A stretch of 64,000 bases of DNA from a virus, in IMG/VR virus record IMGVR_UViG_3300033153_009458, positions 39,091 through 103,090 of that record; one strand, given 5' to 3'. This document shows positions 6,498-20,739 of the stretch, in pieces; the first letter of the stretch is position 1; each line of letters starts with the position of its first letter. The translations under genes and the position numbers were made by a program. The notes under the pieces are model-generated. The model ran no database searches. It was not told where the DNA came from and saw only the letters and a list, made by a program, of their open reading frames with translations.

Positions 6498-6550
6498 TTT
6501 GTCTCCATCAAAGAGGTTTTTGAAGGGTTTTATCAACTGAGTACACCTTT

Positions 6551-6579
6551 AATATGGACTTCTAAAACCACTCTGTCAA
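6551..6579 (-). promoter_or_regulatory. Early-type sigma70 promoter
   Basis: TTGACA, 17-base spacer, CATATT, followed by the leader AAAGGTGTACTCAGTTGATA. Nearly the same promoter and leader occur at 61089 and 61921. Confidence 0.85.
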
Positions 6580-6597
6580 GAAAAAAACACAATTATT

Positions 6598-7843: not shown

Positions 7844-7850
7844 TGTATCC

Positions 7851-8506: not shown

Positions 8507-8521
8507 ATTATTCGTTAAAAA

Positions 8522-8578
8522 GGTGTGAAGCGGTACATCATTCTCCAAAAATTAAAATTAAGTAAAAGCCTTCACACC
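8522..8578 (-). terminator. Hairpin with T run between array genes
   Basis: GGTGTGAAG (8522-8530) and CTTCACACC (8570-8578) are perfect complements; read on the minus strand the hairpin is followed by TTTTT. The ~39-base loop holds a GGAG ribosome site, so it may regulate rather than only terminate. Confidence 0.5.
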
Positions 8579-8587
8579 CTTGATTTA

Positions 8588-8824
8588 TCATCCCATCACG
8601 CTATCAACACGATACTTAACACTTTCGTTCAGATTAAAAGGCTTATAAAGCGGAAATTTTTTCATTTGCTTTATGATATTACGTGCCTTGTTTTTAACCC
8701 AACGAGCTTCGTTAGTATAGCGTTGATGAGATGGACTTTTGAAACAGCGACCGTGTTTTTGGTTTTTTTTACCTTTTTTACGTCCGGCCCCTTTCGCCCT
8801 TTTCAGGGTAATTTCTTCAGCCAT
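8588..8824 (-). CDS. Basic hypothetical protein
   Basis: 78 residues, lysine/arginine-rich (residues 8-25 AKGAGRKKGKKNQKHGR), with a clear TAGGAGAGAGAC ribosome site. Charge suggests nucleic-acid binding. The 135-base leader upstream carries a tiny ORF and two hairpins, which points to post-transcriptional control. Confidence 0.7.
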   Translation of the reverse strand: MAEEITLKRAKGAGRKKGKKNQKHGRCFKSPSHQRYTNEARWVKNKARNIIKQMKKFPLYKPFNLNESVKYRVDSVMG

Positions 8825-8856
8825 GTCTCTCTCCTATAAAAAGAGTTGTTTTAAAT

Positions 8857-8891
8857 TAAGAGACATTAGGCTAATTCACCTAACTCTCTTA
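8857..8891 (-). promoter_or_regulatory. Attenuator-like hairpin after a leader ORF
   Basis: TAAGAGA (8857-8863) with TCTCTTA (8885-8891) and TTAGG with CCTAA form a 12-pair hairpin. The leader ORF stop codon sits in its 5' arm on the minus strand. A CTCT/AGAG pairing can also hide the ribosome site of the gene at 8824. Confidence 0.5.
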
Positions 8892-8954
8892 GATAACACC
8901 CGTGAAATAAACACGGTATATCCTCAATTGTGCTAGGTATTGTTCAGTTTTCAT
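8889..8954 (-). CDS. 21-residue leader ORF
   Basis: ATG at 8954 has TGGAGAATACT upstream. The frame spells MKTEQYLAQLRIYRVYFTGVI then stop. A CCGTG/CACGG hairpin (8900-8916) lies in its 3' half and the stop opens the next hairpin, as in translation-coupled attenuators. It may equally be a decayed gene. Confidence 0.4.
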   Translation of the reverse strand: MKTEQYLAQLRIYRVYFTGVI

Positions 8955-8974
8955 AGTATTCTCCATTTTAGTTG

Positions 8975-9274
8975 TTATAGTGTTCCAAGTTCTTTAGATA
9001 TACATTCGCTTTTTGTTTTGAATATATATCCGTGTTCTAAAAGTTTTCTAAACCATTGTTGTGGAATTGATCGTTTCCATGAAACTTTAGTATTCAATTC
9101 TCCGTTTTGCACCCATCTGTGAATTCTAAAAGGTATGTATGTTTTCTTTTTATTCCAATACCCTGAACGACGAACTATATGTACTCCAATTTTGCTTGTT
9201 AACCACATTCTTCGTATTTCAATAGTCGGCTCAATAAAATAATATTTTATTCCTTGATGTTGTTTAGTAATCAT
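8975..9274 (-). CDS. Array-1 paralog (GYIF...KELGTL tail)
   Basis: 99 residues. Begins MITKQHQGIKYYFIEP, like the gene at 7851, and has WKRSIPQQWFRKLLEHGYIF before the tail SKELGTL. The insert in the middle (RRSGYWNKKKTYIPFRIHRW) is basic and aromatic. Function unknown. Confidence 0.75.
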   Translation of the reverse strand: MITKQHQGIKYYFIEPTIEIRRMWLTSKIGVHIVRRSGYWNKKKTYIPFRIHRWVQNGELNTKVSWKRSIPQQWFRKLLEHGYIFKTKSECISKELGTL

Positions 9275-9280
9275 AATTCG

Positions 9281-9604
9281 TTATAATGTAAGTAGTTCGT
9301 ACGATAATTTTATTGATTCTGGTGTTATTTTTTTAAATCGAACACCGGTTATTTTGGTGCAATGTTCTGGGTCTACTTTTTTTATTGTAAAAATTGTTTC
9401 TATTGTAGCTTGACCACCATTAGAATACGAACCACTATTCGAAATTACATAAAAAATATATTTCAAATCATAATATTTATATGTTGCGATAATATGTCTC
9501 AATTTGTTTTTCTTTTCGTACATATAATTAGCAGCTTTATAAAAATCATCGTATTCGTAGTATTCTGAAAATTGAGATATTTTTTTAAAAAGATCGGTGT
9601 TCAT
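9281..9604 (-). CDS. Array-1 member (YELLTL tail)
   Basis: 107 residues. Helical N terminus (MNTDLFKKISQFSEYYEYDD), then beta-rich middle (IATYKYYDLKYIFYVISN) and an alpha-helical end with ITPESIKLSYELLTL. Less similar to its neighbours in sequence but of the same layout and end. Ends 26 bases from the next start. Confidence 0.7.
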   Translation of the reverse strand: MNTDLFKKISQFSEYYEYDDFYKAANYMYEKKNKLRHIIATYKYYDLKYIFYVISNSGSYSNGGQATIETIFTIKKVDPEHCTKITGVRFKKITPESIKLSYELLTL

Positions 9605-9625
9605 AACGTTAAGAATTTAATTTTA

Positions 9626-9952
9626 TCATAAAGTATTCATTAGGATTGCTGCTTGTGTCGATTTTGATATTTCTGGTTTAAAAAAATAACCCCAAATGTG
9701 TATTTTATGAGTATTACTACTAGAACTTCTATAATAAGAAACGTTTTGTGGATACCCACGTAATGTATAATCAAATTCGTACTGAAATTCACCATCACAA
9801 TAAAATCTAAAAAATATATATTCTAGGTTTGGATCATTCTTATGAATATCAATCATAATCGGACAAAGTATACCAAAATTAAATTTTTTTACGTTTTCAC
9901 TATACACTAACGCTGAATGAAAATATTTCTTAGTATTTTGCGTAAATATCAT
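9626..9952 (-). CDS. Array-1 member (ILMNTL tail)
   Basis: 108 residues; beta-rich, with HIWGYFFKPEISKSTQAAILMNTL at the end. ATGA overlap with the upstream gene. The block x-G-Y-F-F corresponds to the GYAF block of the paralogs. Confidence 0.7.
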   Translation of the reverse strand: MIFTQNTKKYFHSALVYSENVKKFNFGILCPIMIDIHKNDPNLEYIFFRFYCDGEFQYEFDYTLRGYPQNVSYYRSSSSNTHKIHIWGYFFKPEISKSTQAAILMNTL

Positions 9953-10269
9953 AGCAATAAAAGCCTGTATGCTGCTTTTGTAGCCTCTGGTGCGCGATCA
10001 TTAAAATAACGACCCTTGAGAACAAAGGTTTTCATATGTCTTAACCAAGCCCCACCAAACGCTATATCAAGCATATATGAGTCAATATTATTCAAAGAAA
10101 ACAGTATTTCAATCTTTCCTTCTATTTCTGTGTACATATCATAATACACATAATCTTGGTTACTGTCAACGTACTTTTCAATAATATTTTTAACATTTTC
10201 AAATCCATCAAAATAAGGATTACCTTGATAAAGTATTTTTTCATTCAGGTATATTAATTCAATATTCAT
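9949..10269 (-). CDS. Array-1 member (AYRLLLL tail)
   Basis: 106 residues beginning MNIELIYLNEKILYQGNPY; last part LKGRYFNDRAPEATKAAYRLLLL aligns with the gene at 9626 (GYFFKPEISKSTQAAILMNTL). ATGA overlaps on both sides suggest strict co-translation. Confidence 0.7.
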   Translation of the reverse strand: MNIELIYLNEKILYQGNPYFDGFENVKNIIEKYVDSNQDYVYYDMYTEIEGKIEILFSLNNIDSYMLDIAFGGAWLRHMKTFVLKGRYFNDRAPEATKAAYRLLLL

Positions 10270-10604
10270 ATTTTCATTATTAAGCGTTTTTCAATTTCTA
10301 TTTTTTTCTTGAATGCGTATCCATTTTCTTTCATCCACTTAAAAACTCTCCAAGGAATCGGAGTACACCAAATAAGTTCTTTTTTAGATACGTATCGAGT
10401 GACAATTCTACCGGTAGTTGATCCTTTGGTTGTTTCCCAATTGTGTGTTTTTTTAATTCGCATCGGGTTGTCGAATCGGTAAATATCGGCTTTTGGATGA
10501 ATAACATCAAAACCAGCAAACATCAGTTTAGGATATAATTCATTAACGATGTCTTCTGTATCAAAAAGCCAGTAATAACTAAGCATGTATTTTTTCTTTT
10601 TCAT
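10266..10604 (-). CDS. Array-1 paralog (GYAF...LIMKI tail)
   Basis: 112 residues from ATG 10604, which overlaps the upstream stop as ATGA; a GTG at 10622 would run into the neighbour. Has W-C-T-P-IPWRVFKWMKENGYAFKKK, the clearest copy of the array-1 block, and a divergent end (KRLIMKI). Confidence 0.7.
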   Translation of the reverse strand: MKKKKYMLSYYWLFDTEDIVNELYPKLMFAGFDVIHPKADIYRFDNPMRIKKTHNWETTKGSTTGRIVTRYVSKKELIWCTPIPWRVFKWMKENGYAFKKKIEIEKRLIMKI

Positions 10605-10891
10605 AATCGCATAAATTCCCACGCCGTTAAGTTATTTTCTGATGATCGAGCATAACCATATTTTATTAAAAACTTTTTACCTGATTTTTTTAATACATGT
10701 CTCCATTTTAAATCTCCATGCCAAACACGCATTTGATCATTACGAATATACATTGAATTAGATCTAAATAAATTGCCAAATAAACTTATAGTCAATCCAT
10801 CTATATTCCAAATATCATAAATTTCTTGTGCAATCTTTGGTGTTAAATCAGTTAAATAATATTTTTTGTCTTTAAATCTAAATGTTCTCAT
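10601..10891 (-). CDS. Array-1 paralog (WEFMRL tail)
   Basis: 96 residues; MRTFRFKDKKYYLTDLTPKI at the start, W-R-H-V-L...FLIKYGYARSS and AWEFMRL at the end. The N-terminal KKYYLTDL matches DKYFLVDI of 7851. ATGA overlaps on both sides. Confidence 0.75.
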   Translation of the reverse strand: MRTFRFKDKKYYLTDLTPKIAQEIYDIWNIDGLTISLFGNLFRSNSMYIRNDQMRVWHGDLKWRHVLKKSGKKFLIKYGYARSSENNLTAWEFMRL

Positions 10892-11163
10892 AAATTCATA
10901 AACTCGTATTTGAGTGCTTCTTTCTCAGAATAAAATGCAAATCTCATATCAATTAAAGCTTTGAGCATTTCATCATTAATTTTTTTTGTCCATTCAATTT
11001 TTTTTAACATTCCACTTTTATCATTTTTATATGTAATATCAAATAAATCATACGTACTAAAATTTTCTTCAACTGATAAAATATGTGCAAGGCTCATGCC
11101 TTGTTCAACCGAAATCGATGGAAGATGCAATATAACTTCTCTTAAATATATTCTTATTTGCAT
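10888..11163 (-). CDS. Array-1 paralog (YEFMNL tail), first gene
   Basis: 91 residues; WTKKINDEMLKALIDMRFAF followed by EALKYEFMNL. First gene of the array; a TTGACA box lies at 11193-11198 but its -10 is poor. The ATG is nine bases after a weak purine stretch. Confidence 0.75.
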   Translation of the reverse strand: MQIRIYLREVILHLPSISVEQGMSLAHILSVEENFSTYDLFDITYKNDKSGMLKKIEWTKKINDEMLKALIDMRFAFYSEKEALKYEFMNL

Positions 11164-11206
11164 ATTCCTAACTTGTCACACTGGAACATCTCTGTCAAGA
11201 AAAATA

Positions 11207-11290
11207 TGGTACTCCTAGTCGGAATCGAACCGACGACCAATTAAGGACCGGGCCTAAACCGGCTGACTTCTCCAGCTTGTCAATAGGAGC
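11207..11290 (-). tRNA. tRNA-Leu(TAG)
   Basis: Class II. Acceptor GCTCCTA/TAGGAGT, A73, encoded CCA; anticodon stem GCCGG/CCGGT with loop TTTAGGC (anticodon TAG, reads CUA); T stem GTCGG/CCGAC. Confidence 0.92.
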
Positions 11291-11295
11291 ACTTT

Positions 11296-11327
11296 CTGAC
11301 ACAAATACAGGTATCTTTTTGTGTCAG
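11296..11327 (-). repeat. Inverted repeat between gene and tRNA-Leu
   Basis: CTGACACAAA (11296-11305) and TTTGTGTCAG (11318-11327) are exact complements with a 12-base loop, overlapping the stop of the gene at 11324. Likely an RNA hairpin that stops or processes transcripts next to the tRNA; no T run on the minus strand. Confidence 0.6.
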
Positions 11328-11530
11328 GATATTCTTTCTATTTTCAGGCTTTCGAGTTTTTTGATATCAGGAATTGTTTTTGCTGTATAAGCAAGTCTCC
11401 AAGTACCGTCTGATAATTTGTCTAAATAAATGAATTCTTTTTCACTTAATTTAATTTCAGATACTTTAGATAATTCCAGTTTATCATCTAAACCTTCAAG
11501 AATAATATTTTTTTTAGTTTTATTTTTCAT
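11324..11530 (-). CDS. Hypothetical protein
   Basis: 68 residues from ATG 11530; the longer frame runs through tRNA-Leu(TAA). Begins MKNKTKKNIILEGLDD; ends KLESLKIERIS. Basic-acidic mix, no family recognised. Lies between two Leu tRNAs. Confidence 0.55.
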   Translation of the reverse strand: MKNKTKKNIILEGLDDKLELSKVSEIKLSEKEFIYLDKLSDGTWRLAYTAKTIPDIKKLESLKIERIS

Positions 11531-11548
11531 GTTTATATTAATATTGTT

Positions 11549-11634
11549 TGGTGCGTCGAGAGGGATTTGAACCCTCAATCCCTTACGGGCGGGAAATTTT
11601 AAGTCTCCTGTGTATCCCATTCCACCACCGGCGC
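11549..11634 (-). tRNA. tRNA-Leu(TAA)
   Basis: Class II with encoded CCA. Acceptor GCGCCGG/TCGACGC has one C-A mismatch; anticodon stem GGAGA/TTTCC, loop CTTAAAA (anticodon TAA, reads UUA); T stem GAGGG/CCCTC. Confidence 0.9.
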
Positions 11635-11639
11635 ACATT

Positions 11640-11715
11640 TGGAAGGAGAGGTGAGATTCAAACTCACATAAACCGGATCAAAACCGGTTGCCGTAGTCAA
11701 CTTGGCTACTCTCCT
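11640..11715 (-). tRNA. tRNA-Gln(TTG)
   Basis: Acceptor AGGAGAG/CTCTCCT, T73, encoded CCA; anticodon stem ACCGG/CCGGT, loop TTTTGAT (anticodon TTG, reads CAA); T loop TTTGAAT. The HNH gene upstream ends inside its first ten bases. Confidence 0.9.
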
Positions 11716-12410
11716 ATATCTTTAATTATTCTTTTCAATCTTTCATGTGCCTTTCCTGTACCACAAAAACCAGCTATTCTAAGAGATTTATATATACTAA
11801 CACCATTTTTACAATTTTTTACCATTTCTTTTAATTTTTCATTAAACATATCCATTTGATTATTTGGACGTTCTTTCAACTTTATACTTTTACAATTTTT
11901 CGAACAATATTTACTGTCATTATAATAAAATAATTTATTACATTGAGGACATTTTATTTTATCAGGCCATTTTATTACTCTTTTTTTAACCCACCCTGCT
12001 TCCAAATAAATTGGTAATTCATGTTTTTTAATGGACTTGCATTTTTTATCTTCAAAGTTTGAAATCCAACAATTACCAAAATTTGGATTATTTTCACCAC
12101 GTTGTATAATTCTCATTGATTCTGAATGTTTGCGTCTTAACCAACCGTATAATTTATTGTTCCTTTCTTGATTAGAACTTTTACAAGCCATCATTATAGC
12201 TGCAAATATCAATCCGGGTTTATCGGGATATATTTTTAACAATAATTGATGTGCTATATAATGTTCTTCCGGCGTTAACGAAACAATATTTTCTTTATCG
12301 TTTGACCCATCAAGACAATTGGGCAATATGTGGTGTTTTTCCACATAACATCCAAGTTGTCTGTTCTTTGCTCTTTCTATTAAAAGAGTATAATGTTTTA
12401 TATAATTCAT
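11706..12410 (-). CDS. HNH homing-type endonuclease in the tRNA region
   Basis: 234 residues from ATG 12410 (an earlier ATG at 12458 is possible). The HNH core is VEKHHILPNCLDGSNDKENIV at about residues 23-43, followed by EEHYIAHQLL. A C-terminal CPQC...CSKNC zinc finger and a helix-turn-helix-like segment probably recognise DNA. The stop codon (11706-11708) lies inside tRNA-Gln. T4 also carries a homing endonuclease gene in its tRNA cluster (segB, a GIY-YIG type), so the location is familiar while the overlap is not. Confidence 0.85.
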   Translation of the reverse strand: MNYIKHYTLLIERAKNRQLGCYVEKHHILPNCLDGSNDKENIVSLTPEEHYIAHQLLLKIYPDKPGLIFAAIMMACKSSNQERNNKLYGWLRRKHSESMRIIQRGENNPNFGNCWISNFEDKKCKSIKKHELPIYLEAGWVKKRVIKWPDKIKCPQCNKLFYYNDSKYCSKNCKSIKLKERPNNQMDMFNEKLKEMVKNCKNGVSIYKSLRIAGFCGTGKAHERLKRIIKDIGE

Positions 12411-12498
12411 GACTCTATTTAGTAAAGTAATTTTTTTTACTTTACAATTAAGAGTCAAAACATCTTAAGAACTACAATATATTAATTTTGATTGTTAA

Positions 12499-12639
12499 TT
12501 AAGCGATTGATTTTATGACTTGCGATTGGAGAAATAAGTCTGAAATCGCAAGGACCACTATACTTAAACTAATCGATAGCAAAGACTGCTTCGATAACAA
12601 GTTTTGCAAGTATTGTAATCTTTGTAACAACGATTTCAT
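12499..12639 (-). CDS. 46-residue hydrophobic peptide
   Basis: ATG 12639 follows AGAGGTAAAT. Begins MKSLLQRLQYLQNLLSKQSL, with a membrane-like core (LSISLSIVVLAISDLFL). The DNA also forms a hairpin CTTGCGATT/AATCGCAAG (12520-12553 region), so the region may act as RNA instead. Moderate support only. Confidence 0.4.
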   Translation of the reverse strand: MKSLLQRLQYLQNLLSKQSLLSISLSIVVLAISDLFLQSQVIKSIA

Positions 12640-12662
12640 ATTTACCTCTTTTTGATGTGTTT

Positions 12663-12974
12663 TTAAAGTGTTTTATACGTGATGTTATTTATAGTACCGA
12701 CAGCTTTTCCTAAATCGTAATCTCGAACAGCTATCCAAAATCTACTAGTCCCGGAATCTTGCATAACCATCATTTGATAAACGGATTTTGATACTTCCAT
12801 GATTCCTTTGCATATTTCAAGAGCTTCTTCCATTGTATCGTAATCTAACCTAGTGCTTTTGGTCAGAGCTGTCAAAGTAGTACCACCTATTCTTATAACA
12901 GGTTGTAATTCATCGTCTTTTCGTTTTATAATAGCGTGATTATCAGATAAATATTTTATTATTAGTTCTCTCAT
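12663..12974 (-). CDS. Hypothetical protein
   Basis: 103 residues, alpha/beta; contains HAIIKRKDDE and VIRIGGTTLTAL. ATGA overlap with the gene upstream, so it belongs to a three-gene operon behind tRNA-Gly. Not recognised. Confidence 0.7.
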   Translation of the reverse strand: MRELIIKYLSDNHAIIKRKDDELQPVIRIGGTTLTALTKSTRLDYDTMEEALEICKGIMEVSKSVYQMMVMQDSGTSRFWIAVRDYDLGKAVGTINNITYKTL

Positions 12975-13171
12975 TTAATCCACTTATCGTGTAACCAACC
13001 GGGCATTGGGATAGGCATTCCATTACCAGGACCAAAACTTAGATATTCACCATATCTTTCTTGCCATGTGGCTTTTTCTAACCAGCGTGTTTCATGATTT
13101 ATGCATCTAGGTAAAAATAAAAAACCACTTTTAATTCTGGTGTCTCCTAATTTTGGATGGTGTATTTTCAT
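12971..13171 (-). CDS. Hypothetical protein
   Basis: 66 residues; MKIHHPKLGDTRIKSGFLFLPR, W/P/G-rich (ATWQERYGEYLSFGPGNGMP). ATGA overlap at both ends. Not recognised. Confidence 0.7.
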   Translation of the reverse strand: MKIHHPKLGDTRIKSGFLFLPRCINHETRWLEKATWQERYGEYLSFGPGNGMPIPMPGWLHDKWIK

Positions 13172-13356
13172 AGATTATTTATTTTTTCTGGTTGAATAAA
13201 ATCTATCGGTACTTCATCCATAATGACCGATAATTGAACCAATAAATCGGCAAAATTTGTACACGCTTGCCGTTTACTTTTTGATCCGATTTCATAGTTA
13301 ATTATAAATCCGCCACTATCTTCGAAAATTTCAATTGTTAATTTGTTGTTAGACAT
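13168..13356 (-). CDS. Hypothetical protein
   Basis: 62 residues, alpha/beta, with AAAGGAATGAA before the ATG. First gene of the small operon after tRNA-Gly. Not recognised. Confidence 0.7.
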   Translation of the reverse strand: MSNNKLTIEIFEDSGGFIINYEIGSKSKRQACTNFADLLVQLSVIMDEVPIDFIQPEKINNL

Positions 13357-13375
13357 TTCATTCCTTTTTCATTTG

Positions 13376-13454
13376 TGGAACCCCTACTCGGATTCGAACC
13401 GAGGGAACTACCGTGGAAGGGTAGCATGTTAATGACCGCTAACATCACAGGGGC
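13376..13454 (-). tRNA. tRNA-Gly(TCC)
   Basis: Acceptor GCCCCTG/TAGGGGT, T73, encoded CCA; anticodon stem CTACC/GGTAG, loop CTTCCAC (anticodon TCC, reads GGA); T stem CTCGG/CCGAG. Confidence 0.92.
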
Positions 13455-13532
13455 ATTATGTCAAAGAGCCGAATCCAACAAGGAAAGGAGACAAAAAGGA
13501 ACCTCACTGAATTCAGCTCTAATTCCTATTTA

Positions 13533-13747
13533 TTATGGGTGAAGGTTTCAATCAGCCAAGCAATGAGCATTGAGCAAGACAAGATCCCAAACCTTGTATT
13601 AAGCAATAAGCATTACAGCCTTCCTTCCATCAAATAAGCAATCGGAGCAAAAACCCTTTTATATGTTTTTTGCGAAAGGGTTAGACTGTCGGCTCAATTA
13701 GAGTCCCTGTAAGGAACAGGTTAGCCAACATCCACAATCACCCATAA
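13533..13747 (-). ncRNA. Nested structured RNA, unknown family
   Basis: No gene fits this 300-base gap. Perfect nested complements are seen: TTATGGGTGA (13533-13542) with TCACCCATAA (13738-13747); ATTGAGC (13569-13575) with GCTCAAT (13692-13698); AACCCTTT (13652-13659) with AAAGGGTT (13675-13682); and a separate CCTGT/ACAGG hairpin (13706-13720). It lies between a gene and tRNA-Gly on the minus transcript; strand is inferred from the neighbours. Confidence 0.6.
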
Positions 13748-13754
13748 CACGAGA

Positions 13755-14342
13755 TCACACCATCAACTCAAACTGTAGAGTTGAAAGTGATCCTTCGCCA
13801 ATCTCAATTTTTGTTGTATAATTCAATTCCAGCAATTGATCTTTCGTTTCTTGAATCGACCGGCTAAGACCGAGCAATTCAGTTTTTCTCAAATCGATAG
13901 TTTCTTTTGAAAAAACACTTGTATTAACTTCACTATCCATGCGTTTTTCAACTTCAGGATTTTCGATTTGTGCAAGCTTCTTTTTGATAATGAGTGTATC
14001 AACTTGCGGCTTTACACTCTTGAAAAAATGTAAGTGATCGTAACTTCTTTGGTAGAAGTTCAAATCAGCTAACAATTTGGTGACGCCACATTCGGCGTTT
14101 GTTCTTCCGGTTGCGTCTCGAAGTTCACGCAACACTTCTTCCAAATCCTGAATTCTTTCAAGATTTGTGTTTATTTCATTACCTCTTTCGGCAATAATTT
14201 CATTCGGATCTTCGAAAGCTGATATTGTAACATCACCAGCTGAAAGTTCCAAATATCCGCCTCTTCCACGGGGCTTCAGCTCAAGAATTCTTTTCAGAAT
14301 TTCTTGTTGCAGTCCAGCGGATTTTTTAAGACTTATATTCAT
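13755..14342 (-). CDS. DIP1984-like coiled protein
   Basis: 195 residues with a strong ribosome site (AAAGGAGAATAA). A heptad-rich N-terminal half, the core RTNAECGVTKLLADLNFY near residue 90, and a second coil ending in LNYTTKIEI match the general layout of the DIP1984/septicolysin-like family (helix, R-T-N-A, helix, W/Y-T-T). That family has no agreed function. The structured RNA begins just behind its stop. Confidence 0.55.
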   Translation of the reverse strand: MNISLKKSAGLQQEILKRILELKPRGRGGYLELSAGDVTISAFEDPNEIIAERGNEINTNLERIQDLEEVLRELRDATGRTNAECGVTKLLADLNFYQRSYDHLHFFKSVKPQVDTLIIKKKLAQIENPEVEKRMDSEVNTSVFSKETIDLRKTELLGLSRSIQETKDQLLELNYTTKIEIGEGSLSTLQFELMV

Positions 14343-14357
14343 TTATTCTCCTTTTTA

Positions 14358-14540
14358 TTATTTTAAAATTTTCTGTAAGCAAAATTTTTCATTTTGTATA
14401 TTGCGAATTTCTTCACAAGCTTTAATTTGTTGTGCTGTTGGATCAGTGTAATCAATACCATCAAATTTAGCTTCGAATGTTAAAGCAAACATAATCGCAA
14501 TAACCATAACAGCTAAACTAGGCCAAAACCAATTTGACAT
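14358..14540 (-). CDS. One-helix membrane protein
   Basis: 60 residues from ATG 14540 behind AAAGGAGATAAA. Residues 4-22 (WFWPSLAVMVIAIMFALTF) span a membrane; the rest has two cysteines and may be periplasmic. The AAAGGAGAT is also the end of the gene upstream. Confidence 0.65.
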   Translation of the reverse strand: MSNWFWPSLAVMVIAIMFALTFEAKFDGIDYTDPTAQQIKACEEIRNIQNEKFCLQKILK

Positions 14541-14541
14541 T

Positions 14542-14721
14542 TTATCTCCTTTGAAAATATTCGTCTGGATCTTCAAATTCAGTGTGACAATCAATGCACT
14601 GTTTACTTGTTACGTGGTAATCAGATGATTTTCCGTCTTTTGCGTATTCCCTAAATTCTCTGTAAGATCCGGTGTGACCGCAATGCGGGCATTTACCATC
14701 AAATTCTATTATCATCCACAT
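14542..14721 (-). CDS. Small zinc-ribbon protein
   Basis: 59 residues: CPHCGHTGSY at residues 11-20 and CIDCHTEFE near 42-50. ATG 14721; sits directly behind the promoter at 14736-14765. Function unknown. Confidence 0.6.
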   Translation of the reverse strand: MWMIIEFDGKCPHCGHTGSYREFREYAKDGKSSDYHVTSKQCIDCHTEFEDPDEYFQRR

Positions 14722-14735
14722 TTTCTTTACCTTTA

Positions 14736-14765
14736 ATTATACATGTAATTAGCAAGGATTGTCAA
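14736..14765 (-). promoter_or_regulatory. Sigma70-type promoter
   Basis: TTGACA and TATAAT with an 18-base spacer, 15 bases before the zinc-ribbon gene at 14721. Confidence 0.75.
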
Positions 14766-14905
14766 TATTATTAAATAAAACAATAAAGCCCACCTAGTAG
14801 ACCGCCCGGTAAGAGTGCTTATACCCTATATTTACGGTACTCTGCTTCTCGTGTCTGTATCCAGAACTCGGTGAATTATTTTAACGAGTTGGCAACCCTT
14901 GCATT
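14766..14905 (-). other. Non-coding gap with hairpins behind tRNA-Met
   Basis: No ORF with a start signal. AACTCG/CGAGTT (14865-14890) and AGAGT/ACTCT (14812-14843) can pair. May be a trailer of the tRNA transcript or a small RNA; nothing more can be said. Confidence 0.4.
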
Positions 14906-14982
14906 TGGTTGCGGGAGAGGGATTTGAACCCCCGGCCTACAGCTTATGAGGCTGCCGAGCTACCAGACTGCTCCACCCCGCA
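14906..14982 (-). tRNA. tRNA-Met(CAT), initiator-like body
   Basis: Loop CTCATAA gives anticodon CAT. The acceptor and D arm (TGCGGGGTGGAGCAG, GGTAGCTCG) closely follow bacterial initiator tRNA, and CCA is encoded. However position 1-72 is a weak T-A pair and the anticodon stem (GCAGC/GCTGT) lacks the three G-C pairs typical of initiators. Initiator, elongator or Ile-lysidine type cannot be settled from sequence alone. Confidence 0.88.
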
Positions 14983-14983
14983 A

Positions 14984-15373
14984 TTAGTCTTTCGGAATCC
15001 GCATAAAACTTTTTTCTTTTCCGGTCAGATCTTCGTAACCTTGACCAATGAATTCCGATTTATATACTCTTTCATCTGGGTTAAAATATTTAACATTGGT
15101 GATTGATTTTTTGTCAGTACCTTTTCGGTACGCTCGAATCGCTCTTTTGATTGAGTAATATTTAGCTTCAATCACTGAAAAAACATCTTCATCAACATTC
15201 CAAAAAGATATTCCACGGGCAACATTACCGTCTTCGTCTTTGATTAAACAAACGGCTGTTCGTCTTTCACCTTTTGGATCACGAACCCAATAAATTCGTT
15301 GTAACAGGTTTAAATTCTTGATTTGTTCTCGGATAAAACCCATCTTCTCACCTGTCGTTTTTTTGCGTTTCAT
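14984..15373 (-). CDS. Hypothetical protein
   Basis: 129 residues, basic, AAAGGAGAACAA before ATG. Strand-rich (RIYWVRDPKGERRTAVCLIKDEDGN) and a long helix in the centre. The stop is two bases from the tRNA-Met gene. Not recognised. Confidence 0.7.
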   Translation of the reverse strand: MKRKKTTGEKMGFIREQIKNLNLLQRIYWVRDPKGERRTAVCLIKDEDGNVARGISFWNVDEDVFSVIEAKYYSIKRAIRAYRKGTDKKSITNVKYFNPDERVYKSEFIGQGYEDLTGKEKSFMRIPKD

Positions 15374-15425
15374 TTGTTCTCCTTTATATTTCTATAAAAA
15401 ATAATCTGGTAAAATGCCCAGATTT

Positions 15426-15713
15426 TCATGTACTATCATCAATAGGGGCTAATATATCATCTGTTTTGAAAATTTCGAAACGTGCTCTATCTAATTTTTC
15501 TTTCGGTGTTCCGAACTCTTCTGGCAGTTCACGTTTCATTGCTTGTAAATCGGCTTCAACCGGCATACTCGGATATAAAGCTAAATTCAATAATTCGTCT
15601 TCTTCATCAATGATAACTGCTATCCCGTATTTGACATTGAATGCATTTATTCCAGGCTTATCGTGTGTATCCATAAGTATAGCTCGGATTTTCTTTTGCA
15701 TTTTTGTATTCAT
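15426..15713 (-). CDS. Hypothetical protein
   Basis: 95 residues, acidic alpha/beta (VKYGIAVIIDEEDELLNLALYP). Directly behind the promoter at 15721-15749. Function unknown. Confidence 0.7.
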   Translation of the reverse strand: MNTKMQKKIRAILMDTHDKPGINAFNVKYGIAVIIDEEDELLNLALYPSMPVEADLQAMKRELPEEFGTPKEKLDRARFEIFKTDDILAPIDDST

Positions 15714-15720
15714 GTCTTTA

Positions 15721-15749
15721 ATTATACGTAGTCTTTTTTAGTCTGTCAA
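15721..15749 (-). promoter_or_regulatory. Sigma70-type promoter
   Basis: TTGACA, 17-base spacer, TATAAT: a full consensus match, ending eight bases before the ATG at 15713, so the leader is very short or transcription starts within it. Confidence 0.8.
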
Positions 15750-15770
15750 GGTTTAAATTTTCTATATATA

Positions 15771-15935
15771 TTATTGTTTGGCAATTGCTTCTGATAGAAT
15801 TTTTACTGCTTCACCATTACCTGTTCGAAAATTTTTTTTTGCTATTTCCTTAATTTTAGAAAATAATGGATCACCTTTTTTCGTGCGAAGATATAAAGTT
15901 TCATACTCATATTTTTTGGTTTGTTTATTTTTCAT
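15771..15935 (-). CDS. Small basic protein
   Basis: 54 residues from ATG 15935 behind AAAGGATAT; the longer frame runs into tRNA-Asn. Begins MKNKQTKKYEYETLYLRTKKG, then a helix. No family recognised. Confidence 0.55.
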   Translation of the reverse strand: MKNKQTKKYEYETLYLRTKKGDPLFSKIKEIAKKNFRTGNGEAVKILSEAIAKQ

Positions 15936-15970
15936 ATATCCTTTTTGATTTATCAATATTTTAATTTTGA

Positions 15971-16043
15971 CTCCAGCGGCAAGGATCGAACTTGCGACAT
16001 TCCGGTTAACAGCCGGACGCTCTACCATCTGAGCTACACTGGA
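15971..16043 (-). tRNA. tRNA-Asn(GTT)
   Basis: Acceptor TCCAGTG/CGCTGGA, G73; anticodon stem TCCGG/CCGGA, loop CTGTTAA (anticodon GTT). Unlike most tRNAs here, CCA is not encoded (TCA follows), so the 3' end must be added by enzyme. Confidence 0.92.
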
Positions 16044-16167
16044 ATTTTAGGGGAGCTTGTTCTAGCTTCGCTTTTGTACTAAGCCCCGGTAAGCTCTTTA
16101 CACAACCCGTTTGTTCTCCACTTATCAATCCCCCTATTATGGTTGATGATAGCCCGAAGAATCTTCT
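16044..16167 (-). other. Non-coding gap with alternative hairpins
   Basis: TAGGGGAGCTT (16048-16058) can pair with AAGCCCC (16081-16087), with AAGCTC (16091-16096) or with CCCCTA (16131-16136); the pairings exclude each other. No ORF. May be a processing or switch element on the transcript into tRNA-Asn. Confidence 0.4.
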
Positions 16168-16749
16168 TTACATCTTCTTTTTTCCAACTTGAAATTTGAC
16201 CTTAGACTTTCCTGCCTTTCTAGCTATTGCTACACCGTTTTTCATAATCTTCACCTTAATCGGGTACGGGTAAACAGCTACTTTTTCTTCAACGTATATT
16301 GGATCAAGAGTACCACCCGGACCCGTACATATTACCCACGTTGCATTCGTATTTTTAGAGAGAAAAATTCCATTTGGTTCTTGTTGTTCAACAACCGGCG
16401 CATCACGCCAATTAGTAGTTGTCGGTTTCAACGGATTCGTCAAACTGGTATCGTACGGAATACCGTAACCCATACTCGGACAATCACCACCATAAACACC
16501 CGTGTCAGATCTCCAAATAGAGTGTGTTGATACTCGTTGGTTTCTCAGATTGTACAGCTGAATAACCAATTCACGTTCTAACGACCAACCATATGCCGGG
16601 ACCGGTTGACGCTTGGCGTAAGTCGAAGATTGCCGATTTGCAGCTTTTTGATCTCTTTCATCTTGTGAATCTTCACAAGAACTCGCCATTAAAAACAAAC
16701 AACTAACTACCAAAACCAAAATTCCTATCGTTCGTTTAAAACCTTTCAT
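16168..16749 (-). CDS. Probable phage lipoprotein
   Basis: 193 residues. A positively charged start (MKGFKRT), a hydrophobic stretch and a lipobox-like LMASSC (Cys near residue 24) indicate export and lipidation at the membrane. The mature part has GGDCPSMGYG and WVICTGPGG. Such phage lipoproteins are often involved in superinfection exclusion, but nothing here proves this. Its start overlaps the stop of the membrane protein upstream by one base. Confidence 0.65.
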   Translation of the reverse strand: MKGFKRTIGILVLVVSCLFLMASSCEDSQDERDQKAANRQSSTYAKRQPVPAYGWSLERELVIQLYNLRNQRVSTHSIWRSDTGVYGGDCPSMGYGIPYDTSLTNPLKPTTTNWRDAPVVEQQEPNGIFLSKNTNATWVICTGPGGTLDPIYVEEKVAVYPYPIKVKIMKNGVAIARKAGKSKVKFQVGKKKM

Positions 16750-17078
16750 TAATTTCTCCTTTCAGCGGCTCTTTGCAGTACGGCAATTGATGCACGTTTA
16801 GCTCTTAAGCCTTGTTTCGTTTCTTCATCCATATTAGATGAAGTTAATTGAACATCAATTTCAGCCAATTGTGCTTCGTAAGTTGTCATTTCGATCTCAC
16901 GAGCTTCTTGATATTGATGACTTGCTTTGAATACCTTGTGTTCAATGAAGGTATTCGTGAAAATGGCTAAATAGCCAAGAAAAGTAAAAATAAGAATAGT
17001 AGCAACGACTAAAGCCATAACAATACCCCACGATTTTGTTATTTCATCGGCACCGCTATCATATTCGGGATCAAACAT
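16749..17078 (-). CDS. One-helix membrane protein with coiled tail
   Basis: 109 residues. A transmembrane segment lies at about residues 18-42 (IVMALVVATILIFTFLGYL), followed by a coiled coil (EAREIEMTTYEAQLAEIDVQ). AAAGGAGTCAAT precedes ATG. Probably forms an operon with the lipoprotein and may act with it at the envelope. Confidence 0.7.
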   Translation of the reverse strand: MFDPEYDSGADEITKSWGIVMALVVATILIFTFLGYLAIFTNTFIEHKVFKASHQYQEAREIEMTTYEAQLAEIDVQLTSSNMDEETKQGLRAKRASIAVLQRAAERRN

Positions 17079-17126
17079 ATTGACTCCTTTTTGTTCATTT
17101 AAAGGAATTTCAAATAGGCATCCTTT

Positions 17127-17327
17127 TTAGCCTTTTTTATCGTATCTACTATCTAATGTATCTAAATCTTTAACAACCCATTCACAAAATTCTCGTAAAA
17201 TCAAATCGTGTGGCATTTTAAATGTTTTTTCTATTAGTGTTACAATATAGTTTAACGGTGTAAAAAACACCAAAAGTATTATAAATCCACCTATGATTAA
17301 TTTTGTTGTTAGTAAAAATCTTTTCAT
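17127..17327 (-). CDS. Membrane protein
   Basis: 66 residues, hydrophobic first half (LIIGGFIILLVFFTPLNYIV) and an acidic/basic tail. Start site is weak. Lies 17 bases from tRNA-Pro. Confidence 0.55.
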   Translation of the reverse strand: MKRFLLTTKLIIGGFIILLVFFTPLNYIVTLIEKTFKMPHDLILREFCEWVVKDLDTLDSRYDKKG

Positions 17328-17343
17328 TTTATTTTATTTGAGC

Positions 17344-17420
17344 TGGTCGGAGTGAATGGATTTGAACCACCGTTTTCTCGCTCCCAAAGCGAGCGACTTA
17401 CCAGACTAGCCTACACTCCG
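17344..17420 (-). tRNA. tRNA-Pro(TGG)
   Basis: Acceptor CGGAGTG/CACTCCG, A73, encoded CCA; anticodon stem CTCGC/GCGAG, loop TTTGGGA (anticodon TGG). Confidence 0.92.
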
Positions 17421-17422
17421 AT

Positions 17423-17680
17423 TTAATTTTCTTCTTCTTTACAATGTATCCAAAATTTTGAGCCGTGTTCAACATCGGCATTAGGATCATTCAAGGCGTT
17501 GATCATATCTTCGTCTTCAAAATCTGTAATTTTTATTTCTTCTTTACTACGACTAACAACGTATTTTTTATCTTCAAACTCAACACAAATACCTTCATCT
17601 ACGTCTAACAGCATTGAAGTAGCCATTGCGAATATAGAAGCTGCCTTTTCATCCGTCATATCATTCATTCTTTTCCCCAA
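17423..17680 (-). CDS. Hypothetical acidic protein
   Basis: 85 residues, acidic (CVEFEDKKYVVSRSKEEIKI, then EDEDM). Overlaps the upstream gene by 16 bases. Not recognised. Confidence 0.7.
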   Translation of the reverse strand: MGKRMNDMTDEKAASIFAMATSMLLDVDEGICVEFEDKKYVVSRSKEEIKITDFEDEDMINALNDPNADVEHGSKFWIHCKEEEN

Positions 17681-17904
17681 TATCCTTGTAATTTAAGTAA
17701 AAATTCTGATGCGTGATATCTGGTTTTAAATCCGTCAACTGGACACAAATAATTCGGTTGATCTGATACAGCTGACCAATATCTTCTCATTTTAAATATT
17801 TTTCCTATCAATATATCTCCAATATAAAACGCATGGCATTTTGATCCCTTCAATTTTTTATAGTGAAAATCTAAAACTTGACCGTTCAAGGTTACACTGT
17901 ACAT
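17665..17904 (-). CDS. Hypothetical protein
   Basis: 79 residues, basic and aromatic (LKGSKCHAFYIGDILIGKIF). It starts 60 bases from the divergent gene at 17964; no ribosome site is clear. Not recognised. Confidence 0.6.
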   Translation of the reverse strand: MYSVTLNGQVLDFHYKKLKGSKCHAFYIGDILIGKIFKMRRYWSAVSDQPNYLCPVDGFKTRYHASEFLLKLQGYWGKE

Positions 17905-17924
17905 GATATTAATTATATATGTTT

Positions 17925-17932
17925 TATAAATA
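17925..17932 (+). promoter_or_regulatory. Late promoter TATAAATA
   Basis: TTTATAAATATATTAAAC, identical over 18 bases to the late promoter at 43079, 32 bases before the RelA/SpoT-like gene. Confidence 0.8.
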
Positions 17933-17963
17933 TATTAAACCGAACAATTAACCAAAGATTACT

Positions 17964-18716
17964 ATGAGATCGTTTTCAGCTTTTATTGCCGATTTAAATG
18001 AAGCAGTCAAACAAACTGCGTTGCTTAAACATCCTACTGTTATGAGATTCTTAGCTTACGAAAAATCTAAGAAAATGTTACCTTCTGGTGTCTCGAAAGA
18101 CAAATTATTAGGTGACGTTTACCAAGAATTACAACCCCTTTTAACAAATACGCACGAAAAATTCAAAAAACTGCTCAATAAAATGGTCGGTGGTAAAAAA
18201 AGAGGTAATACCAAAATTTTAACTGATATTAAATCTCTTAAATCTCTCAAATCGAAAGTCATAGCCCGGAAAAAACCTTTACAAGGTATCGGTGATTTAG
18301 TCCGTGGTGCTCTTCTCTTTGAATTCAAAGAAGAAGCTGATAAATTTGTTAAAGACTTTCGACGTAAACACGCTAATTTAATTATCAAGTACGACGAAAA
18401 ACAAAAAGAAAATAAAAATTCTTTTGGTTATTACGGTTCACATCATTTCAAACTAGCTCTAAATGGTATACTTGTTGAGCTTCAAGTCATGACTAACAAA
18501 CTTTGGTCTTATAAAGAAGCTGGCCATGAATATTACAATAAATATCGTGATGCCGGTACTGATGCTAAAGTTAGTCGATCAGATATAGCAGCATCACAAG
18601 GTACATTCTTTAAAGGTAATCGACCTAAATTCAAACGTGAATCAGTAGAAGACGTGTTCAATGAGTTTCCTGATCTCGATTCACTGTTAAGAGAAATGTT
18701 CTTGCCCAAAGATTAA
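17964..18716 (+). CDS. RelA/SpoT-like protein with capsid-targeting-like N terminus
   Basis: 250 residues, sole plus-strand gene in a minus-strand region, behind a late promoter. Residues 1-14 (MRSFSAFIADLNEA) resemble T4 capsid-targeting sequences (MKTYQEFIAEA), with a possible prohead-protease site after LNE. Residues ~105-205 carry the RelA/SpoT nucleotidyltransferase layout: GIGDLVRGALLF, a basic strand, FGYYGSHHFKL (compare GYRSLH), VELQVMTNKLWSYKEAGHEYY (compare VEIQIRT...W...EH..Y). The usual R of the Q-x-R-T motif is replaced by M. Possible activities are (p)ppGpp synthesis or pyrophosphorylation of tRNA, as in toxSAS proteins. Expression late and packaging into the head are inferences. 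Confidence 0.75.
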   Translation: MRSFSAFIADLNEAVKQTALLKHPTVMRFLAYEKSKKMLPSGVSKDKLLGDVYQELQPLLTNTHEKFKKLLNKMVGGKKRGNTKILTDIKSLKSLKSKVIARKKPLQGIGDLVRGALLFEFKEEADKFVKDFRRKHANLIIKYDEKQKENKNSFGYYGSHHFKLALNGILVELQVMTNKLWSYKEAGHEYYNKYRDAGTDAKVSRSDIAASQGTFFKGNRPKFKRESVEDVFNEFPDLDSLLREMFLPKD

Positions 18717-19102
18717 GTTTTTTTCAGATAGAATGAGAAATGCCCATTTTCGTGTTCATAGAAATGATATAATTTCTCTATTTCTTTTAAACTTCTATTA
18801 ATATATCTTCTGTATACAGCCGCTTTTCGTTTTGTTGACGCTTCGAAGTATATCATTTTTGGTTTGGATTCATACATCCAAGAAATGACTGCATCTTTAA
18901 CTTTATTAAGTACACCAAACGGATTCGCAGTCAAATCAACATCTCCAATTTCGTCTTCATCGTTGTACCAAAAAAAATGATTTCGTTTTTTGCCTTTTTT
19001 TGTGGCACCGCTACGTAGTTCGAAAGCAACTGAACCTGTCGTATCATTCATGTAAATACGATAATTTAGGCCGCATATTGAAAAGTCCACTGTTTTTTCC
19101 AT
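18713..19102 (-). CDS. Hypothetical protein
   Basis: 129 residues, basic, strand-rich start (MEKTVDFSICGLNYRIYM) and helix-rich end. Its stop overlaps the stop of the RelA/SpoT-like gene by four bases on the other strand. Transcribed from the promoter at 19133-19162. Confidence 0.7.
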   Translation of the reverse strand: MEKTVDFSICGLNYRIYMNDTTGSVAFELRSGATKKGKKRNHFFWYNDEDEIGDVDLTANPFGVLNKVKDAVISWMYESKPKMIYFEASTKRKAAVYRRYINRSLKEIEKLYHFYEHENGHFSFYLKKT

Positions 19103-19132
19103 AGTCTATTACCATTTTCTAAGTTCACTTTA

Positions 19133-19162
19133 AATATACGGTACACAAACTATTTCTGTCAA
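19133..19162 (-). promoter_or_regulatory. Sigma70-type promoter
   Basis: TTGACA, 18-base spacer, TATATT, 31 bases before the ATG at 19102. Confidence 0.7.
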
Positions 19163-19173
19163 GTGTTTTTTTA

Positions 19174-19256
19174 TGGAGCCAAGGGTGAGATTCGAACTCA
19201 CGATGTGGTATAATACCTTACAAAAGTATCCCTTTCGACCACTCAGGCACCTTGGC
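19174..19256 (-). tRNA. tRNA with Thr anticodon (TGT), class-II-like body
   Basis: 83 bases with encoded CCA. Acceptor GCCAAGG/CCTTGGC, T73; anticodon stem ATACT/GGTAT, loop TTTGTAA (anticodon TGT, Thr ACA). The D arm (CCTGAGTGGTCGAAAGG) and the 11-base variable region look like Ser/Leu tRNAs, so identity by body and by anticodon disagree. Confidence 0.8.
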
Positions 19257-19264
19257 CTTTTTAA

Positions 19265-19471
19265 TTATTCTTCAGTTGAAGCACAAGTTGTCAATACATT
19301 ATCTTCGTACACCGATTGAAAAACCATATTTTTGGTGATTTTTCTCGGAATTTTCAGTTGTTTGATGGTTTTCTCGGCTTTCTCGAATGTTCCAGCAATG
19401 ACATTAAACATATACTCGTTACCATCATCATCAGTTGAAGTAAAATTCCATTGAAATTTTCTTGTACTCAT
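19265..19471 (-). CDS. Hypothetical protein
   Basis: 68 residues; MSTRKFQWNFTSTDDDGNEY, then a lysine-rich helix. AAGGAGAACCA precedes ATG. Lies between tRNA-Thr and tRNA-Glu. Not recognised. Confidence 0.65.
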   Translation of the reverse strand: MSTRKFQWNFTSTDDDGNEYMFNVIAGTFEKAEKTIKQLKIPRKITKNMVFQSVYEDNVLTTCASTEE

Positions 19472-19504
19472 TGGTTCTCCTTAAATTTATTAGTTTACTT
19501 ATTT

Positions 19505-19579
19505 TGGTATCCCGACTGAGAATCGAACTCAGGTTGCTGGCTTGAAAAGCCAGTGTCCTAACCACTAAACGACCGGGAC
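19505..19579 (-). tRNA. tRNA-Glu(TTC)
   Basis: Acceptor GTCCCGG/TCGGGAT, A73, encoded CCA; anticodon stem CTGGC/GCCAG, loop TTTTCAA (anticodon TTC). Confidence 0.93.
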
Positions 19580-19582
19580 TTT

Positions 19583-19939
19583 TTACAATTTATCAGCGTA
19601 GCTTGTGTGGCTAATTGTTAGTGTATTGTTTGATGTATTAGTATCATCAAGTTGAACAGTTCCACTTGTTGTCGTATTTTTTAGATCAATATCAACACCA
19701 CTCATATCAGTTGTACCTGTAAGTGGTTGTGCTACGGTCCAAGCTGGTGCTGTATAAGTTGTTTGATCTGAAGTAAGAGGTGCATTCCAAACTTCATGAC
19801 CTAAATTCAATTGTTCAGGAAAATTCTCGTTCAAAATATCCCTTAATTCTTTAATTTCTTCTAGAGTTAATAACGTTCTAATCTTCCCTATTTGTAACTC
19901 TACTTTGTTGAATTGTATTTTTCTTTTTCCCTTTGGCAT
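19583..19939 (-). CDS. Hypothetical protein, basic head and T/S-rich tail
   Basis: 118 residues. First 40 residues basic and helical (MPKGKRKIQFNKVELQIGKI); last 60 rich in T, S, N and D (NTTTSGTVQLDDTNTSNNTL), as in some virion or fiber proteins. It has a weak start and shares 62 bases with the small frame upstream. Function unknown. Confidence 0.55.
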   Translation of the reverse strand: MPKGKRKIQFNKVELQIGKIRTLLTLEEIKELRDILNENFPEQLNLGHEVWNAPLTSDQTTYTAPAWTVAQPLTGTTDMSGVDIDLKNTTTSGTVQLDDTNTSNNTLTISHTSYADKL

Positions 19940-20057
19940 TATATTTCTCGAATAACTCGGTTAATTTACGATTTGGTAATACTGGACCTTTTTTAGCTTC
20001 TCGTAAAGCTTCAAAATCCTCTTTTGATATACCTATTTTTTGATATTTTCTATGCAT
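19878..20057 (-). CDS. Small basic protein (overlapping)
   Basis: 59 residues: MHRKYQKIGISKEDFEALRE, then K-rich. Start overlaps the upstream stop by eight bases. The long overlap with the next gene makes one of the two starts doubtful. Confidence 0.4.
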   Translation of the reverse strand: MHRKYQKIGISKEDFEALREAKKGPVLPNRKLTELFEKYNAKGKKKNTIQQSRVTNRED

Positions 20058-20235
20058 ATTTTGCGTAAGGTCCGCTTACTTCATAATCGTATTGATATTG
20101 GTGTTCGTGGTCACATCGTTGACATAATAAAGTTCCAAATTTTGATCTACCGTTGTCGTGCTCGACCATTTTAATGTACTTATGGCCAGCAAATTTACAC
20201 ATGTATTCTTGAATTTGTTTAATTATTTTTGTCAT
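20050..20235 (-). CDS. Small protein with CQRCDH zinc site
   Basis: 61 residues. CKFAGH near residue 13 and CQRC near 40 plus several His could bind Zn. The ATG uses the A of the encoded CCA of the Arg tRNA upstream, and the AAGGGG of the tRNA acceptor may act as ribosome site: tRNA and mRNA therefore compete for the same bases. Confidence 0.55.
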   Translation of the reverse strand: MTKIIKQIQEYMCKFAGHKYIKMVEHDNGRSKFGTLLCQRCDHEHQYQYDYEVSGPYAKYA

Positions 20236-20322
20236 GGAACCCCTTGGTGGAGTCGAACCACACGCTATCCGTTAAGCTAGTTTTACTAGATCGATTTAGA
20301 AGACCGATGCCTTACAAGGGGC
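20235..20322 (-). tRNA. tRNA-Arg(TCT)-like gene with rearranged arms
   Basis: Acceptor GCCCCTT/AAGGGGT, T73 and encoded CCA, T loop TTCGACT. A perfect anticodon arm TCGGT-CTTCTAA-ATCGA (anticodon TCT) follows only eight bases after the acceptor. A D-arm-like AGCTTAACGGATAGCG lies downstream, in the variable region, behind a CTAG/CTAG hairpin. Either a rearranged pseudo-tRNA or an unusual functional one. Confidence 0.6.
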
Positions 20323-20330
20323 TATTATAG

Positions 20331-20399
20331 AACCCCTATACAGGATCGAACTGTACCTATCGGCTTCGAAGGCCAATGTCCTTATCCAAAGGTAGGGGC
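20331..20399 (-). tRNA. tRNA-Arg(TCG)
   Basis: Compact, 69 bases, no encoded CCA (CTA follows T73). Acceptor GCCCCTA/TAGGGGT; short D arm CCTTTGGATAAGG; anticodon stem TTGGC/GCCGA with loop CTTCGAA (anticodon TCG); T stem TACAG/CTGTA. Confidence 0.85.
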
Positions 20400-20418
20400 G
20401 TTTGTACGATCCCTACGT

Positions 20419-20646
20419 CTATATTTTTGTTTTATTTTCATAATAATTTTCACAAGTTTTTTTTAGGCATCCTAGTGATTCGCCTTCCCATGTATTAATA
20501 ATTGTGCTACCGCATATTTCACAATACGGTCTTTGTATGTCGTTTACTAAATCTTTATTGTTAGATTTAAGTTCATCTTCTATTAATTTTACGGTTGAAT
20601 ACGCAACCCACGCAATAAAAATAACAAATAAAATATTTAGTATCAT
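20419..20646 (-). CDS. Membrane protein with zinc-type cysteines
   Basis: 75 residues. Residues 2-20 hydrophobic (ILNILFVIFIAWVAYSTV); CEIC near residue 42 and CLKKTC near 59 may bind Zn. Short 12-base gap to tRNA-Asp. Function unknown. Confidence 0.6.
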   Translation of the reverse strand: MILNILFVIFIAWVAYSTVKLIEDELKSNNKDLVNDIQRPYCEICGSTIINTWEGESLGCLKKTCENYYENKTKI

Positions 20647-20660
20647 TTTTCTCTTTGTTT

Positions 20661-20739
20661 TGGCACCCCTGATCGGATTTGAACCGACGATTTCCGCCTT
20701 GACAGGGCAGTGTCATAGACCAGACTAGACCACAGGGGT
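20661..20739 (-). tRNA. tRNA-Asp(GTC)
   Basis: Acceptor ACCCCTG/CAGGGGT, G73, encoded CCA; anticodon stem CTGCC/GGCGG, loop CTGTCAA (anticodon GTC); T stem GTCGG/CCGAT. Confidence 0.9.

Follow-up and report, generated by a model that had tools for sequence, protein, structure and literature searches.

A putative virion-delivered RelA/SpoT-type enzyme with a T4-like capsid-targeting tag in a T4-superfamily phage

The window, the 64,000-nucleotide stretch of DNA that was analysed, comprises bases 39091-103090 of a virus record (IMGVR_UViG_3300033153_009458) of 151,141 bases; positions below are those of the window, and "genome" coordinates refer to the whole record. An ORF at 17964-18716 on the plus strand encodes a 250 amino acid RelA/SpoT-like protein with an RSH synthetase domain, an assignment drawn from the ORF translation, Pfam, a family profile, AlphaFold2, and Foldseek. 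The translation contains MRSFSAFIADLNEA, GIGDLVRG, GYYGSHH, and VELQVMTNKLW...EAGHEYY. As an earlier note made from the letters of this DNA had observed, the gene stands alone on its strand: it is the only long plus-strand ORF between minus-strand genes at 17665-17904 and 18713-19102. It is also surrounded by minus-strand tRNA genes (tRNA-Pro, 17344-17420, and tRNA-Thr, 19174-19256). Overall, 12 tRNA genes are clustered around it on the minus strand at 2875-20739, and a thirteenth (Trp, 50994-51068) lies on the strand opposite to that of the cluster. By eye, the ribosome-binding site of the RSH gene is weak in appearance.

The octamer TATAAATA, the T4 late consensus, is found at 17925-17932 on the plus strand, 31 nt 5' of the ATG, and is a predicted T4-type late promoter element. 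Counted over the whole window, it is not unusually frequent (14 against 10.8 expected), but no other octamer is as enriched between 12 and 62 nt 5' of ORF starts (9 found, 0.86 expected); the portal gene is among those that it precedes. Upstream of the RSH gene in other phages, described below, either TATAAATA or CATAAATA is present in the tagged relatives L024, L027, L028, and L030, and AATAAATA is present in L025 and phiN3. The placement of the octamer and its enrichment favour the earlier proposal that the gene has a late promoter of its own.

Pfam detected only RelA_SpoT (PF04607) in the protein, over residues 89-196 and with E 4.1e-5; at 24.3 bits this match falls just below the curated cut-off of 27 bits, and no MuF domain is fused to the synthetase. 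The same model matches seven of 10 family members, the best at E 7.5e-11 and above the cut-off, and the member from L025 scores 42.8 bits. A family profile finds the solved small alarmone synthetases 2be3 and 3l9d in the PDB at E ~5e-5, and PHROG 37685, whose function is not known, matches the protein at E 2e-37. The single protein sequence gave only a chance match in a phmmer search of the PDB (BBK32, E 0.094), and neither NCBIfam nor PADLOC had a match for it. An AlphaFold2 model built from a 10-sequence alignment had a mean pLDDT of 75.7, reaching ~90 in the core, and the top 50 Foldseek matches of this model in the PDB were RSH enzymes without exception (50/50), with query TM-scores of at most 0.64. 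The best of them was the tRNA pyrophosphokinase CapRel (E 7e-6), which leads the others by a small margin only, 2be3, RelP, and RelQ following closely behind. It is thus practically certain that the ORF product has the RSH fold, and both profile and model identify it as a divergent RelA/SpoT synthetase domain. The structure comparison that the earlier note had proposed, a different fold being the outcome that would tell against its RelA/SpoT assignment, therefore returned the RSH fold, in agreement with Pfam and the family profile.

The protein begins with MRSFSAFIADLNE (17964-18002, plus strand), which by comparison with T4 is a capsid-targeting-like tag with a predicted gp21-type cut after E13, between LNE and the following A. 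The T4 ipII and ipIII products start MKTYQEFIAE, and that of ipI starts MKTFKEF (NC_000866). In T4, head targeting requires no more than the first 10 residues, of which residues 4 and 7 matter for targeting and residues 8 and 10 for processing; it is also described that gp21 cleaves after L/I-x-E and that the propeptides of the internal proteins (IPs) are 10-19 residues long (PMC9026906). In MRSFSAFIADLNE, F4, F7, and I8 match the IPIII residues needed for targeting and processing, D10 takes the place of the T4 E10, and LNE occupies positions 11-13. Asp at position 10 stops processing of the T4 tag, not its targeting (PMC9026906), and cutting of the RSH tag would therefore depend on LNE13. A T4-derived pattern, M..[FY]..[FYI][ILV].[ED], was scored on the first-ATG proteins of the whole phage; it fits seven of 265, against 0.14 expected (the shuffled mean; the largest count in 300 shuffles was two), though a regular expression applied to such short starts may of course pick up non-packaged proteins. 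None of 685 internal Met starts of the phage proteins fits. The phage also encodes an S77 (gp21-type, T4-type) prohead protease (E 1.4e-26), Gp23, a T4-type portal, and a scaffold, and the LTE cut site of its Gp23 aligns with that of T4. The capsid-targeting-like start with an LNE site that was noticed earlier is thus borne out by this excess and by the tagged RSH relatives in other phages, and the predicted tag very probably marks the RSH protein for packaging into the head, as we infer from its likeness to the T4 sequence.

Five other tagged proteins adjoin the capsid genes (genome 109756-119090). One, starting MESFKTYIAE, has 1384 residues and a PARP-type ADP-ribosyltransferase domain (E 1.6e-6; genome 109756-113910, L010:7756-11910, minus strand, outside the window); it is a possible counterpart of T4 Alt from a different catalytic family, and among the eight records searched, it was found in this phage only. 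Another, starting MRTFKQIVKE, is a SpoT/MESH1-type HD_4 hydrolase (E 1.8e-21; genome 113897-114454, L010:11897-12454, minus strand, outside the window), with further matches to the structures of MESH1, SpoT, and Rel (E about 1e-14 to 1e-17); it is a candidate injected alarmone hydrolase. The further tagged starts beside the capsid genes are MKTFKQFLNE, MKTFKEYIME, and MKRFRQYLEE. The small MKTFKEYIME protein (genome 116176-116538, minus strand, outside the window) has PHROG matches to a family named for phosphoheptose isomerase (E 3.8e-10) and, weakly, to polynucleotide kinase (E 3.5e-4); by eye it is HAD-like (AVDLDRTLA) and a candidate injected phosphatase. Weaker tag-like starts are found in small plus-strand ORFs of the window at 43124-43486 (MISFEEMLEE, with TATAAATA upstream at 43079-43086), 49173-49472 (MEIFEKILKNQLTE), and 49474-49728 (MKTFEELVNKNLNE), which may encode further internal proteins.

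Relatives of the protein occur in the Sinorhizobium phages phiM12, phiN3, phiM19, and phiM7, in Variovorax phage V45v66, in Desulfovibrio phage SRB7757, and in eight more distinct IMG/VR contigs; a scan of viral contigs with the single protein had returned none, and the contigs were found by alignment-based scans. The Sinorhizobium proteins are annotated as RelA/SpoT family except in phiM7, whose gene is split. One and the same protein is encoded in L028 and L029, and the L022 record is phiN3; the family has 12 distinct members, the window protein included. A scan of genome contigs found no relative and thus no cellular source. Seven of the 12 are tagged; apart from the window protein, the starts are MKSFKQFLVE (L028/L029), MLSFKQFLVE (L024), MKTSFKKYLLE (L030), MKSFKAFMAE (L027), MKFSQFLTE (L025), and MIEFKQYVLME (SRB7757); the spacing of some is one residue off that of T4. 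The other five (phiN3/phiM12, V45v66, L021, L023, and L026) are untagged, so packaging is not essential to the RSH domain, and since no family of tag-like starts was found in phiN3, the tag seems tied to the type of phage. In a poorly resolved tree, the tagged relatives occupy several separate branches rather than a single clade, and the segment between tag and RSH domain varies among relatives. An S77 protease is encoded in all eight relative-bearing records of at least 100 kb; the five records that lack it are fragments of at most 59 kb. In two different phages, the prohead protease gene seems to be broken in frame by an intein-like insert, located at a similar point of the profile in both (interrupted frames of 583 and 573 residues at SRB7757 L063:3349-5100, minus strand, and G001 about 104625-106154). 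The tagged RSH protein of L025 (L025:5509-6543) has an extra N-terminal segment (DGHHTWLARKE) that is ParB-like by eye and in which Pfam found nothing, and the RSH gene of SRB7757 has just downstream of it another tagged gene, the next one, for a DnaJ-domain protein with the tag-like start MKSFKEYISEA (L006:8866-9939).

The distribution of tags bears on whether the enzyme travels in the virion at all. It could instead be expressed late and act in the producing cell, either against superinfecting phages or by slowing the cell late, its tag-like start being incidental or otherwise used. A late promoter is compatible with such action, as are the untagged relatives of phiN3, V45v66, L021, and L026 and the lack in phiN3 of a family of tag starts. 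We nevertheless judge this reading unlikely, as positions 4, 7, and 8 of the RSH start agree with the T4 tag, and tags recur in seven of 12 relatives when chance is expected to yield 0.14 in the proteome of the window phage; moreover, when the long ORFs of the ~12-kb locus were compared in L024, L028, and L030, no start other than that of the RSH protein combined a plausible MxSFKxFL-type core with a fit to the T4 pattern, whether as such or shifted by one residue. Packaging into the head is the reading that we prefer.

A second tagged enzyme recurs with the first in L027. There, the tagged RSH gene is the first of a run (L027:1324-4363) in which a 112-residue ORF comes next, and then three more tagged genes, for an HD hydrolase (MKNFKDFVAE), a SprT-like protein, and a small protein, all of the tagged products having MK[SN]FK starts; by eye, the last resembles the product of genome 114983-115375 in the window phage. 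HD_4 proteins occur in nine of 13 relative-bearing records, but most are short, untagged, and distant, and SpoT-type hydrolases are fairly common in phages; their co-occurrence alone was accordingly rejected as a sign of pairing, which leaves the tag and the L027 neighbourhood as the evidence for it. A link to the CCA-adding enzyme, whose gene lies near the RSH gene in phiN3, was considered and does not carry over, no such enzyme (PolyA_pol family) being found in the record of the window phage. A packaged synthetase and hydrolase might also be a toxin with its immunity protein, comparable to MuF-Apk2/Aph1, in which the synthetase would harm the host or phage competitors, and the phage's own production would be shielded by the hydrolase. 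Both enzymes are tagged in the window phage, their tagged counterparts are two genes apart in L027, and a hydrolase gene follows Apk2 in prophages (PMC12226406). On the other hand, the two genes are ~56 kb apart in the window phage, several relatives have untagged and more distant HD proteins only, and the shared tag implies joint injection of both proteins, not what one expects of an immunity protein; we regard this explanation as improbable.

What the injected enzyme might do depends on its active site. The conserved RSH core common to the phage relatives, defined by alignment, covers residues 82-220 (18207-18623, plus strand, as are the motifs within it). In DLVRGA (D111-A116, 18294-18311), the invariant Asp aligns with the Mg-binding Asp of 3l9d (QDIAGLR); S159-x-H161 (18438-18446) aligns with the SxH (syn3) motif of RSH enzymes (PMC12226406); and in ELQVMT (E172-T177, 18477-18494), the invariant E172 aligns with the catalytic Glu of EIQIRT. 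Overall, K90, D111, H161, E172, Q174, and T177 are invariant in 10 relatives, residue 159 is Ser or Thr, and by alignment to the alarmone synthetases 2be3 and 3l9d, K90 corresponds to the lysine of RxK, and E172 and Q174 to ExQ. Two arginines that are usual in RSH domains, though not absolute, are replaced: that at D+5 (D..G.R) is A116 in DLVRGA, and that of ExQIR (ExQxR) is M176 in ELQVM. The catalytic residues on which the earlier note had staked its assignment are thus kept as regards Asp, Glu, Gln, SxH, and Lys, and the two usual arginines are not. In guanosine-type RSH enzymes, syn2 is AVR, syn3 is SxH, and syn4 is IR; the ATP-specific Apk2, with RYT, GxN, and YH in that order, is active although it departs at syn2 and syn4 (PMC12226406). 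By this comparison, the phage family mixes a guanosine-type syn3 with an Apk-like syn2 (RGA) and a syn4 of its own (VM). Replacement of the arginines makes pyrophosphokinase activity less than certain, and retention of D111, SxH, E172, and Q174 suggests that catalysis is under selection; there is good reason to predict an active enzyme. The protein might otherwise be a decoy, an RSH fold without activity by which the RSH enzymes of the host or CapRel-type defence enzymes are bound or titrated. The two lost arginines and CapRel as the top structural match would accord with this, but it is very improbable given that D111, H161, E172, and Q174 are invariant across phages and position 159 is always Ser or Thr, as selection for catalysis would suggest.

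Most likely, then, the gene encodes an RSH enzyme that is made late, packaged into the head, and injected. Its tag resembles the T4 head-loading label, and the enzyme is thus probably injected with the DNA. The sequence itself displays the fold, the tag, the promoter element, the protease, and the tagged hydrolase, and from these we infer packaging, cleavage, injection, catalysis, and purpose. We hold the full reading to be probable, by which a T4-superfamily phage injects this protein from inside its head and the RSH-type domain is a pyrophosphokinase. The gene would be transcribed late from its own TATAAATA promoter, and the first residues of the protein would bind the prohead core, as the T4 capsid-targeting sequence does. 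The gp21-type protease would remove the tag after LNE13 as the head matures, and a mature enzyme of 237 residues would enter the next cell together with the DNA. There, ATP would be its pyrophosphate donor, and the 3'-OH of a nucleotide or tRNA the acceptor. It would probably act on the stress-nucleotide or tRNA chemistry of the host as soon as infection begins, and host growth, transcription, or translation would be damped before phage genes are on. The tagged SpoT-type hydrolase would probably limit or reverse the RSH product. A role in taking over the host is only slightly favoured over its absence. More tentatively, some T4-superfamily phages may inject a tagged synthetase and a tagged SpoT-type hydrolase as matched alarmone enzymes, accompanied by a tagged ADP-ribosyltransferase, such that the virion would set host (p)ppGpp or tRNA chemistry in the first minutes.

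The protein shares with T4 IPI, IPII, IPIII, and Alt an N-terminal tag with aromatics at positions 4 and 7, I/L at position 8, and an LxE/IxE cut site, and the T4 ip genes likewise lie near a tRNA cluster, the RSH gene being inside one. It differs from the T4 internal proteins in that the cargo is an RSH domain rather than an anti-restriction protein or an Alt-type ADP-ribosyltransferase, and in the D10 and the predicted propeptide of 13 residues of its tag. Fold and core catalytic positions are those of the small alarmone synthetases and toxSAS (RelP/RelQ, CapRel, and FaRel2), from which it departs by RGA (cf. RYT of Apk2) instead of AVR at syn2, by VM instead of IR at syn4, and by the proposed delivery in the virion. 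The phiM12/phiN3 RelA/SpoT family protein, which also matches PHROG 37685, belongs to the same family (38-43% identity), but its gene lacks the T4-type tag and lies in a long plus-strand run beside a methyltransferase gene. A 2017 proposal holds that host transcription and translation are altered by RelA/SpoT domains of polyvalent proteins that phages inject (PMC5512222), MuF-Apk2 head-protein toxins are active and make (p)ppApp, with a hydrolase gene alongside (PMC12226406), and HD alarmone phosphodiesterases of jumbo phages have been noted as counter-defence (PMC7824862). An RSH domain on a head or injected phage protein thus has precedents (PMC12226406, PMC5512222), and the earlier description of a "new kind of injected effector" was too strong. 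In those systems, however, the domain is fused to MuF or to a large multidomain protein, whereas the present enzyme is stand-alone with a short, predicted cleavable T4-type tag. In the openly accessible papers searched, an RSH protein was nowhere reported from a T4-type virion. What is new is a stand-alone RSH enzyme with a T4-type tag that recurs in T4-superfamily phages, together with a SpoT-type hydrolase tagged in the same way.

If this is true, the stringent-response chemistry of the host would be a direct target of proteins delivered with the phage DNA, ahead of all phage gene expression. The tag would also provide a simple rule by which the set of injected proteins of uncultured T4-type phages could be read from sequence; in the window phage, the proteins that it singles out include the ADP-ribosyltransferase, the SpoT-type hydrolase, and the RSH synthetase. 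The question of what T4-type phages inject would thereby become a list of candidates open to proteomics.
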